DNA of 64,000 nucleotides, from NCBI GenBank assembly GCA_016870155.1, contig VGCE01000004.1:1-64000 (forward strand), written 5' to 3'. The stretch comes from Actinomycetota bacterium (GTDB taxonomy: Bacteria; Actinomycetota; Thermoleophilia; Miltoncostaeales; Miltoncostaeaceae). A program made the translations under genes and the position numbers. Below are positions 9,606 to 26,944 of the stretch, piece after piece. The notes beneath the pieces are model-generated. The model was not told where the DNA came from. It did no database searches and was given only the letters and a program-made list of their open reading frames with translations. Each line of letters starts with the position of its first letter. Positions within the stretch are counted from its first letter, which is position 1.

Positions 9606-11512
9606 CCTGCATCTCCCTCGTCGATTGCCTGTACGTCCTGAGGTTCGCCGGATGCCACCGGCTCCCTTCCGGCGCGCAGGGTGGCCCACAGGGCATCCGA
9701 TGCGTGCACCGGGTCGCCGGTGACCACCGCACGGCGCAGGGAAGCGATGCGGTCGGATAGCGCCACGGGGTCGAGCGCGGGTCGGGTGGCGCGGAGGATG
9801 CCCCCGTATCGCGTGGGCTTCACCTCCTCATCGAGGTTGAACAGCTCCTCGTGGAGCTTCTCGCCGGGGCGCACCCCGGTGACCGCCACCTGGATGTCGC
9901 GGCCGGGCTCCATCCCCGAGAGGCGGATCATGTTGTGCGCGAGGTCCATGATGCGCACGGGCTCGCCCATGTCGAGCACGAACACATCGCCGCCGTCGGC
10001 GATGCCCGTGGCCTCGATCACCAGCTGCACGGCCTCGGGAATCGTCATGAAGTAGCGCGTCATGTCCGGATGGGTGACTGTCACCGGTCCGCCCGCCGCG
10101 ATCTGGCGGCGGAAGATCGGCAGCACCGAACCGGACGAGCCCAGCACGTTGCCGAAGCGCACCGCGGCAAAGCGCGTGCCCGCGTCGTGGCCGTGCATCT
10201 CCACCACCCGCTCGGCCAGCGCCTTGGTGCCGCCCATCACGGTCTTGGGTTCCACGGCCTTATCCGTGGAGATGAGGCAGAAGCGCTCCACGCCCCGGCG
10301 CACCGCGAGGTCCGCCAGCGTTGCCGTGGCCAGCGCGTTGTTGGCGATCGCCTGGATGGGGTTGATCTCCATCATCGGCACGTGCTTGTAGGCGGCTGCG
10401 TGGAAGACGATCTCAGGGCGGTGCGCGCTGAAGACCTGCTCCATGAGTTCGGCGTCACGGCAGTCGGCCACCACCGGCACCGGCGCGTGGCCGCGGTCGC
10501 GCAGCTCGAGGTCGATCTCGAAGAGGTTGTTCTCGGCGTGATCCACGATCACCAGACTGCTCGGCCCCACGGCCGCCACCTGGCGGCAGAGCTCGGAGCC
10601 GATGGACCCCCCGGCACCGGTCACCAGCACGCGGCGCCCGTTGAGGTAGCGGGCCACCCGCGCCATGTCGATCTCCAGGGGCGTGCGGCCGAGGACATCC
10701 TCGACCTGCACCTCGCGCAGCCTCTGCACCGATACCTCACCGTTCATCAGCTCGGGCAGGCCGGGCAGGGTGGTCACCCGCACGTTGGCCGCTCGGCACT
10801 GCTCCACGATGTCGCGTCGCACGGCGCCGGGAGCCGACGGCATGGCGATGATCACCTCACGGGCACGGGTCTCGCGCAGGATGCGCGGCAGGTCGGCACG
10901 TGTGCCCAGCACCTTCACGCCGCCCACGCGAAGGCCCTTCTTGCGCGGGTCGTCGTCGATGAGGGCCACGGGCGTGTAGGCCAGGGCCGCGTTGGCGCGC
11001 ATGTCGCGCAGCAGCGAGTTGGCGGCGTTACCGGCGCCGCAGATGATCACCGACAGGCCCGACCCCACCGCCGGTCCGCGCGATGTGCGCTCCATGAAGG
11101 AGCGCACCACGAACCGCACGCCGCCGATGAGCACCACCGTGAACAGGAAGTCGAGCGCGAACACGCCGCGCGGCACGGCCTCGTAGCCGTCCGGGCGCCA
11201 CAGCGTGAGCGCCAGCGTGACGAGGCCACTGGCAACCAGGCAGGCGAGCAGGATCTGCTCGAGCTCCTGGATGCCGGTGAACCGCCACCAGCGGGTGTAA
11301 AGCCTGAAGGCGACGAACGTGAGCAGCTTGATGCCCACCACCACGCCCACGGTGACGAAGAACAGGCGCTCGTACCGGGCGGGCGGGTCGCCGTCGAAGC
11401 GCACCACGAAGGCCAGCCACCAGGCCAGCGCGATCAGCACAAGGTCCACCGAGACCTGGCCGAGGCGATGCAGGTACCCCCGCAGGGCGAGGCTTCCGAT
11501 GCGCGTGCTCAT
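9602..11512 (-). CDS. Membrane UDP-N-acetylhexosamine 4,6-dehydratase (CapD/WbpM/PglF-like)
   Basis: 636 residues, the full length of this two-part family. Four hydrophobic helices lie in residues ~15-135, then a CoA-binding-like Rossmann domain (SVIICGAGNAANSLLRDM), then the SDR catalytic domain with NAD motif GAGGSIGSELCRQ (about residue 295) and the active-site stretch STDKAVEPKTVMGGTK. There Met-Lys replaces the usual Tyr-Lys, as in WbpM/PglF. These enzymes start synthesis of 6-deoxy amino sugars such as diNAcBac. The next genes upstream in the operon encode a DegT aminotransferase and a glycosyltransferase-like protein, consistent with making and using a 4-amino sugar for a surface glycan. 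Confidence 0.93.
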   Translation of the reverse strand: MSTRIGSLALRGYLHRLGQVSVDLVLIALAWWLAFVVRFDGDPPARYERLFFVTVGVVVGIKLLTFVAFRLYTRWWRFTGIQELEQILLACLVASGLVTLALTLWRPDGYEAVPRGVFALDFLFTVVLIGGVRFVVRSFMERTSRGPAVGSGLSVIICGAGNAANSLLRDMRANAALAYTPVALIDDDPRKKGLRVGGVKVLGTRADLPRILRETRAREVIIAMPSAPGAVRRDIVEQCRAANVRVTTLPGLPELMNGEVSVQRLREVQVEDVLGRTPLEIDMARVARYLNGRRVLVTGAGGSIGSELCRQVAAVGPSSLVIVDHAENNLFEIDLELRDRGHAPVPVVADCRDAELMEQVFSAHRPEIVFHAAAYKHVPMMEINPIQAIANNALATATLADLAVRRGVERFCLISTDKAVEPKTVMGGTKALAERVVEMHGHDAGTRFAAVRFGNVLGSSGSVLPIFRRQIAAGGPVTVTHPDMTRYFMTIPEAVQLVIEATGIADGGDVFVLDMGEPVRIMDLAHNMIRLSGMEPGRDIQVAVTGVRPGEKLHEELFNLDEEVKPTRYGGILRATRPALDPVALSDRIASLRRAVVTGDPVHASDALWATLRAGREPVASGEPQDVQAIDEGDAG

Positions 11513-19308: not shown

Positions 19309-19327
19309 ACATGCGCGCAACCGACCG

Positions 19328-19354
19328 GTGACTGTCACCCGTGGTGACTGTCAC
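19328..19354. repeat. Tandem palindromes GTGACTGTCAC x2 between convergent genes
   Basis: Two copies of the 11-base near-palindrome GTGACTGTCAC start 16 bases apart. The whole can also fold as a single hairpin with 12-bp arms and one T-T mismatch around CGT. It lies 13 bases past the clpB stop (minus strand) and beyond the SRPBCC terminator, so it may act as the clpB terminator or as a protein-binding site. Confidence 0.6.
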
Positions 19355-19367
19355 CCCCCGGCTCGGG

Positions 19368-24096: not shown

Positions 24097-25992
<1,896 letters not shown>

Positions 25993-26074: not shown

Positions 26075-26095
26075 CATGAGTCACCCCATATCAAG
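26075..26095 (-). promoter_or_regulatory. HspR operator (HAIR-like inverted repeat) upstream of dnaK
   Basis: The minus-strand sequence CTTGATA-N7-ACTCATG matches the HAIR consensus CTTGAGT-N7-ACTCAAG at 5 of 7 and 6 of 7 positions with exact spacing. It lies about 80 bases before the dnaK ATG. With hspR in the same operon, this is the expected autoregulatory site. The dnaK promoter itself was not pinned down. Confidence 0.7.
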
Positions 26096-26106
26096 TCATC
26101 TGCGTT

Positions 26107-26129: not shown

Positions 26130-26214
26130 GCCGCCAACCCCGGTGTCAGGCACTTAACCGAGGGTGTCAGCATGCGCGCGGGTCGGTTAAGTGCCTGACA
26201 CCGGGGTTGGCGGC
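26130..26214. repeat. Perfect 32-bp inverted repeat with 21-base loop
   Basis: Arms at 26130-26161 and 26183-26214 are exact reverse complements, each containing GGTGTCAGGCACTTAACC or its complement. The 21-base loop carries a partial third copy (GGTGTCAG). It lies between the bioY terminator and the dnaK regulatory region. Arm length and perfection are far beyond a normal terminator and suggest a small non-autonomous palindromic element; no transposase is nearby. Confidence 0.85.
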
Positions 26215-26225
26215 GCACCAACGCG

Positions 26226-26250
26226 AAAGGGCCCGCTCAGCGGGCCCTTT
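26226..26250 (-). terminator. bioY terminator
   Basis: Perfect 11-bp stem AAAGGGCCCGC / GCGGGCCCTTT with a three-base loop, 38 bases past the bioY stop on the minus strand. The stem ends in TTT on either strand, so it may work in both directions. Confidence 0.8.
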
Positions 26251-26287
26251 CCGGTTACGCGTGCCCCATGCCGGGGCGGTCTGGCGC

Positions 26288-26944
26288 CTAGACGATGCCG
26301 GCGGGCGGGCCGTCCTCCTCGCGGTTCTTGCCGAAGCCCGTGCGCTGCAGCAGCGCCCAGCCCGCGGGCAGGATCGCCGCGACGACCGCCAGCTTCAGCA
26401 GGTCACCCAGGATGAACGGCTGCACGCCGAGCTCGTAGGCCTGCGACCACCCCAGCGTCACGCCGTCGCCCGCGGGCGACCAGTTGGCCAGCCAGGGCAG
26501 GCCGATGGCGTAGATGAGCACGTTCCCCAGCAGCAGCACGCCGATCATGGGCACCACCCGGCGGTCGGCGCCGCGCTCGCACAGCCATCCCACCACGGCG
26601 GCGGCGAGGATGAAGCCGATGATGTAGCCGCCCGTGGCGCCCGTGATGATGTCCCAGCCACCGGACTGGTCGCTGAAGATCGGGGCACCGAGCGCGCCGA
26701 TGGCGAAGTACAGCACCAGCGACAGCGCGCCGCGCCACGCGCCCAGCATGCCGCCCACCAGCAGCACGGCGAGGGTCTGCCCGGTGAACGGCACCGGGTA
26801 CCAGGGGATCGATACCTGCGCCAGCAGCGACACCACGGCCGTGCCGGCGAGGACCAGCAGGATGTCGCGGACGAGCGTGCTTGCCCGGCTCTGGCCGCGG
26901 GGGACGACGCGATCGACGATCGCCCCGTAGCGAACTGCATGCAT
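26288..26944 (-). CDS. bioY: Biotin transporter substrate-binding subunit BioY
   Basis: 218 residues with about six membrane helices. Family signatures: WYPVPFTGQTLAVLLVGG (about residues 48-65), GALGAPIF, GATGGYIIGF and the ANWSPAGDGV loop. BioY is the S component of ECF transporters and captures biotin; with no ATPase or T-component nearby it must use a shared energising module or act alone. No biotin synthesis genes are adjacent. Upstream, the gene shares a 105-base divergent region with phoU. Confidence 0.92.
   Translation of the reverse strand: MHAVRYGAIVDRVVPRGQSRASTLVRDILLVLAGTAVVSLLAQVSIPWYPVPFTGQTLAVLLVGGMLGAWRGALSLVLYFAIGALGAPIFSDQSGGWDIITGATGGYIIGFILAAAVVGWLCERGADRRVVPMIGVLLLGNVLIYAIGLPWLANWSPAGDGVTLGWSQAYELGVQPFILGDLLKLAVVAAILPAGWALLQRTGFGKNREEDGPPAGIV

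Follow-up and report, generated by a model that had tools for sequence, protein, structure and literature searches.

A hairpin repeat between bioY and dnaK as a probable RAYT-recognised mobile dimer in an actinobacterial lineage

The perfect inverted repeat that separates bioY from dnaK is very probably a non-autonomous mobile dimer of terminal inverted repeats, TIRtron/REPIN-like in its organization and recognised by a RAYT encoded elsewhere in the genome, which was later inherited for the most part vertically. We regard it as an already known type of element that now turns up in a new bacterial lineage, and whose evolution in place is unusually clear.

The hairpin at dnaK and its dispersed family

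In the window, by which we mean the whole stretch of 64,000 nucleotides analysed here, the arms at positions 26130-26161 and 26183-26214 are 32 nt long each, 100% complementary and separated by a 21-nt loop, in agreement with the perfect repeat that the initial annotation had reported beside dnaK. By our own estimate, a perfect 32-bp match at one offset has a chance of ~0.29^32 or ~1e-17 at a G+C content of ~70%, which excludes a chance origin of the arms over 64 kb. The whole structure, with its G+C-rich arms, is predicted to adopt one long fold (-46.7 kcal/mol in the fold computed by our script), and a single arm alone has weak self-complementarity (about -2 kcal/mol).

Comparison with the 21 other paired copies in the genome and with orthologous sites delimits the element proper to 26136..26208 (73 bp, no strand), with the organization AACCCC-GGTGTCAGGCACTTAACC-loop-GGTTAAGTGCCTGACACC-GGGGTT. 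Based on comparison of the arms among paired copies, the family part of the left arm is AACCCCGGTGTCAGGCACTTAACCGA (26136..26161, + strand), and the right arm (26183..26208, - strand) is the left-arm sequence inverted; the only part of each arm that recurs in other copies is AACCCCGGTGTCAGGCACTTAACC(GA). The variable loop (26162..26182, no strand) extends over 26160-26184 if the 18-bp arm core is taken as its limit, which places it in the 25-nt class. The initial annotation had pointed to a partial third copy of the repeat in the loop. GGTGTCAG is indeed found there, at 26163-26170, but other copies lack it at this place; it is fortuitous and no feature of the family. The outer 6 bp that extend the arms, GCCGCC at 26130..26135 on the left and GGCGGC at 26209..26214 on the right, lie outside the family consensus and are missing from other copies. 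This outward extension, peculiar to the dnaK-site copy, may stem from chance or from a template switch at the hairpin.

A search for dispersed copies in the 1.81-Mb genome (hereafter G000), as the initial annotation had suggested, returned 51 matches to the 18-mer GGTGTCAGGCACTTAACC with at most 2 mismatches (26 forward and 25 reverse), against 0 for the reversed pattern used as a control in the same genome. Most arm matches form inverted pairs that span 46-86 bp, most commonly 61, and the family amounts to about two dozen units, the paired copies having variable loops. According to an ORF/GC3 heuristic, the copies are intergenic and usually lie against the 3′ end of a gene (8 convergent, 11 tandem and 3 divergent contexts). 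Rfam gave only sub-threshold matches, to families of long hairpins (MIR918, Ms1 and others) and far under the gathering scores; they reflect the shape of the hairpin.

Three other repeats were noted alongside this family. The loop of the copy at L052 990-1060 (G000:C7:995-1056) is a terminator-like hairpin, AAAGGGCCCGCCGGAGCGGGCCCTTT, which resembles the hairpin downstream of bioY, and the orthologue of this copy in G007 carries a longer version of the loop hairpin. At L038 (G000:C2:51622-51696), GGTGTCAGGCACCGGGGCCG plus one base makes up a 21-bp unit that is present in four tandem copies. A second palindromic repeat, GGTGACTGTCACC, is present in the window at 10073-10085, 19327-19339 and 19343-19355 and at 68 sites of the genome, often paired; its copies flank a second RAYT gene (G000:C2:239058-239597).

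The two neighbouring genes, dnaK (24097..25992, ATG at 25992) and bioY (26288..26944, orthologues 76-95% identical within the genus), are ORFs on the - strand. The spacer between them also contains, outside the element, a GC-rich hairpin downstream of bioY (26220..26256, - strand) and, upstream of dnaK, a HAIR/HspR-like box of the GACTTGATATGGGGTGACTCATG type (26075..26099, - strand). A separate terminator had been placed next to the repeat by the initial annotation: the GC-rich hairpin exists and is kept in relatives, but a simple U-tract scan makes no terminator call for it. It is probably the bioY terminator, independent of the element. Among the relatives compared, with and without the element, nearly all have the hairpin after bioY and all have a similar box upstream of dnaK; the element is dispensable for both, because relatives that lack it keep them.

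An element occupies this position also in three relatives, G007, G011 and G014 (loops of 38 nt versus 25 nt in G000), and is therefore no recent arrival at dnaK. Relatives without the insertion, a comparison proposed at the outset, were found as well: G031, G013, G008, G006 and G001 have no element at dnaK. At the position where it would lie, the spacer of G031 reads GAACC joined directly to GGGGTACC, and G031 likely lost its copy, judging from the element present in its nearest relatives. The spacers of G009 and G010 have different hairpins, unrelated to the element: a long one with GGTGCCAGACCCCTCACC arms in G009 (L096) and, in G010 (L104), arms of ~30 bp, GGCCGGGCGCGGTGTGCGGTGGCGGAC, that enclose an inner hairpin. 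The bioY-dnaK spacer seems to be a repeat-tolerant site.

A RAYT gene between the same inverted repeats

The ACCCC...AACC part of the left arm is identical to the inverted repeats of an arm pair, G000:C3:216128 and 216826, that encloses one gene, coding for a RAYT/Y1 HUH transposase, in a unit of 709 bp. The perfect arms around this gene measure 23 bp (ACCCC...AACC) in G000 and 26 bp in G011, which has an orthologue in the same place (78% identical). The product matches Pfam Y1_Tnp (PF01797) over the cut-off. The model that describes it best is NF047646 (REP-associated tyrosine transposase, REP_Tyr_transpos), with a score of 78.6 bits, just under the cut-off of 80; nine of nine members of the genus match this model (best E 2.5e-26). 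The HUH motif and the catalytic Tyr (Y---NP), represented by H60, H62, Y119, N123 and P124, are invariant in alignment A1. A sequence search of solved structures with the RAYT returned no match. When 60 RAYT relatives from named genomes of diverse phyla were examined, flanking inverted repeats were present in 53, many with GGGG[AT]CA, and 27 of these 53 match the widened motif GG[GT]GN[CG]A[CG].

Within the genus, RAYT genes occur at the same chromosomal locus and there is also a second RAYT type, each with its own flanking variant: GGTGTCAGGCACTTAACC in G000 and G011, GGTGCCAGGCACTTAACC in G005, GGTGACAGGCACC in G012, GCTGACAGGCACC in G002/3/4/18, GGTGCCAGACACC in G010, GGTGACAGTCACC at the second RAYT of G000 and in G015, and GGGGTCAGTCCCC at the second RAYT of G003/G018. 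Genome-wide, arms of the TC variant number 47 in G000, with 1 CC, and those of the CC variant 16 in G005, with 1 TC; arms are also TC in G007 and G011, and mostly TC in G014. The variants of the arm are specific to each genome and correspond to the ends that the local transposase unit itself carries. At a shared site, E5, the arms are CC in G005, CC-like in the eroded copy of G031 and TC in G000 and G011, a distribution, drawn from few sites, which suggests that TC arms probably replaced CC arms in place, with independent re-insertion as the rival reading.

The RAYT site is empty in two relatives, reading ACCCGGGGT in G009 and AGCCCGGGGT in G014. Sites without element or unit often show ACC(C/CC) joined to GGGGT (the dnaK site of G031 and the RAYT site of G009 and G014), a scar predicted both by precise excision and by CCGG-repeat slippage at the foot of the hairpin, so that these two events are indistinguishable at empty sites. 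About two dozen arms are kept in G014 despite its empty RAYT site and an assembly in which no RAYT could be detected; to make arm integrity depend solely on a RAYT being present is therefore too simple an explanation.

Other observations concern the RAYT loci. In G016, G031 and G013 (L235-L237), the locus holds other inserts of ~580-860 bp with no recognisable RAYT; it is a small hotspot. Three records titled Bifidobacterium breve (L152, L154, L163) encode RAYTs whose identity to those of this lineage is close to that observed among genus members, and their isolate names are lake-like; the species names on these records are probably wrong. Finally, a uracil-DNA-glycosylase-like gene at C2:82798-83774 lies between two arms and resembled a composite element formed by cargo capture. 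This candidate was rejected because relatives have the gene in the corresponding place, likewise beside an arm; two neighbouring single arms are probably what is seen there.

These data bear on two other explanations of the hairpin. A regulatory or terminator structure, under selection for its effect on both dnaK and bioY, would agree with a site conserved in four species (G000, G007, G011 and G014), with a very stable hairpin and with copies at the 3′ ends of genes, as for structures that are tolerated or used as RNA 3′ ends. We nonetheless consider it very unlikely given that about two dozen further copies stand beside unrelated genes and that both the length and the sequence of the loop vary at the dnaK site itself. 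Furthermore, G031, G013, G006 and G001, which lack the element, retain the GC-rich hairpin and the promoter box, for which reason dnaK regulation was discarded as the main explanation, and a role as intrinsic terminator was dismissed as well since the U-tract scan finds none after the element. The initial annotation favored a REP/MITE-type mobile palindrome, which is accurate with regard to a dispersed repeat with copies and empty sites, but the element is neither a MITE of a DDE transposase nor a canonical GTAG-tagged REP. A classical MITE, whose terminal inverted repeats would be recognised by a DDE transposase, is the least plausible of all the explanations that we considered: the element is short, with long inverted repeats and no coding capacity, yet the same repeats enclose, elsewhere in the genome, the gene of a Y1 HUH RAYT, and no consistent target-site duplication could be read by eye around the paired copies.

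Evolution of the copies at orthologous sites

Copies from G007, G011, G014 and G005 were paired with those of G000 by their flanks, which yielded 30 orthologous pairs at 17 of the 21 compact G000 sites. The arm cores are identical in 18 of the 30 pairs and at 1054/1080 positions overall (97.6%), a value biased upwards since orthologous copies were found by their arms (<=3 mismatches per arm) and strongly decayed ones were missed. Across pairs, identity amounts to 63% for loops taken in their best orientation, to 72% for the 40 bp adjoining each side of the element, and to 89.5% for those parts of the 400-bp flanks that align. This comparison points to arms that are maintained while their surroundings change. 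Verification of seven G000 sites by flanks alone revealed that G031 lost or eroded its copies. All relatives are represented by draft assemblies only, often broken at these repeats.

With respect to the fixed flanks, the loop is inverted between species at three or more sites, that of dnaK among them. The dnaK site is the cleanest case, with 31/38 positions matching between G007 and G014 in the inverted orientation and 16 in the forward orientation, a result reached by 0/20,000 shuffles. The same holds, each time with 0/20,000 shuffles, for E16 in G007 and G014 (25/25 inverted, 18 forward) and for E5 in G000 and G011 (23/25 inverted, 18 forward), two sites at which the forward scores are raised too because the loops are partly palindromic. 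The signal is weaker at E3 between G000 and G007 (18/25 inverted, 13 forward), where 2/20,000 shuffles reach the score. Loops are plainly forward at E1 and E6.

Such patterns could conceivably result from insertions that hit the same hotspots repeatedly and independently in the different species, instead of one ancestral insertion that evolved in place. This alternative, which we judge rather unlikely, would account for loop classes that differ within a site (25 nt in G000 versus 38 nt in its three sisters at dnaK; 12 versus 25 at E10), for loops of opposite orientation at one site, and for the CCC(C)GGGG core common to empty sites, which could be a target. It is difficult to reconcile with a 38-nt loop found, among the copies collected, only at the dnaK site and in three species, with forward-orthologous loops that persist at E1, E6 and E13, and with the eroded remnant at the shared E5 site of G031. 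Somewhat less likely again is an active maintenance of the copies by the RAYT, in which the enzyme, or repair after its nicking, would rewrite old fixed arms to its own ends. Were this the case, concerted evolution would proceed at fixed positions (including E5 and the RAYT unit) while loops drift and flip, and RAYTs would be homogenising enzymes rather than mainly mobilising ones.

The likeliest process in our opinion combines template switching between the arms with RAYT-linked homogenisation. Template switching homogenises arms and inverts the spacer, and would by itself, with no transposase involved, account for arms that match and loops that flip. It is insufficient for a single genome-wide arm variant that differs between genomes along with the RAYT's own ends, which would call either for turnover through copying or for selection by way of RAYT specificity. 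We propose that the arm, folded as a single strand, is the substrate of a RAYT-type (TIRYT) Y1 HUH transposase, and that this enzyme brought the 73-bp unit into the spacer between bioY and dnaK when the clade had not yet diverged from its ancestor. The site would then have been inherited mostly vertically, template switching between the inverted arms keeping them matched and occasionally flipping a loop that otherwise drifts, while a slower turnover, probably transposase-linked, would keep arms alike genome-wide. At dnaK, the element would be a passenger, tolerated in the interval from the bioY hairpin to the dnaK promoter. The evidence of movement consists of presence or absence between species, and the fact that most copies are shared with sister species weighs against recent mobility in G000.

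Relation to known RAYT-associated repeats

The TIRYT/TIRtron units described in a 2013 study of GTAG- and CGTC-tagged repeats (PMC3733652) consist of a RAYT-like gene within long terminal inverted repeats, with no GTAG tag, these repeats being dispersed as singles or dimers. The 709-bp unit found here has the same organization, a RAYT within long perfect terminal inverted repeats without GTAG tag, and its repeats are likewise dispersed as singles and dimers. Compared to the published TIR consensus, GGGGWSAS (PMC3733652), GGTGTCAG has one mismatch, and the sister RAYT of G003/G018 has an exact match, GGGGTCAG. The present family differs by its occurrence in a small-genome actinobacterial lineage, and by between-species arm co-evolution and loop inversion, neither of which is described in the passages of PMC3733652 consulted.

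REPINs also have two inverted conserved ends and a variable spacer, form a long hairpin, are extragenic and are linked to a RAYT (Bertels & Rainey 2011, PMC3116915), and their populations have reportedly lasted for millions of years (PMC8049555). The dnaK-type element shares the inverted conserved ends, the variable spacer, the hairpin fold, the extragenic location and a genomic RAYT. It departs from REPINs in that the 85-bp structure contains no GTAG/GTGG guide tag or its complement and that its arm folds weakly alone, and from CGTC-tagged REPs in that neither CGTC nor GACG is found in the element; with about two dozen units, the family is also smaller than classical ones. A phylogenomic survey of 2018 (PMC6006769) assigns 20/26 TIRYTs to TnpAREP subclass 2.1 / RAYT group 1 and reports that genes of subclass 2.1 lack neighbouring REP-like sequences. 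The RAYTs described here, candidate members of this subclass, have the HUH and Y---NP motifs of class 2 but are flanked by clear repeat pairs. As for template switching at short inverted repeats, homogenisation of arms and inversion of the spacer were both described in yeast genes (PMC8604942), and both patterns are observed here in dispersed bacterial repeats.

RAYT-linked repeats are an old puzzle, with transposases that look domesticated, repeat populations that persist and little visible movement. The word Actinobacteria is absent from the main text of both PMC3733652 and PMC6006769, and our results extend TIR-type RAYT repeats to a lineage that is unnamed there. Because the family is countable, at about two dozen units, and its sites are recognisable across sister species, each site can be read separately for insertion in an ancestor, for homogenisation of its arms, for inversion of its loop and for loss.
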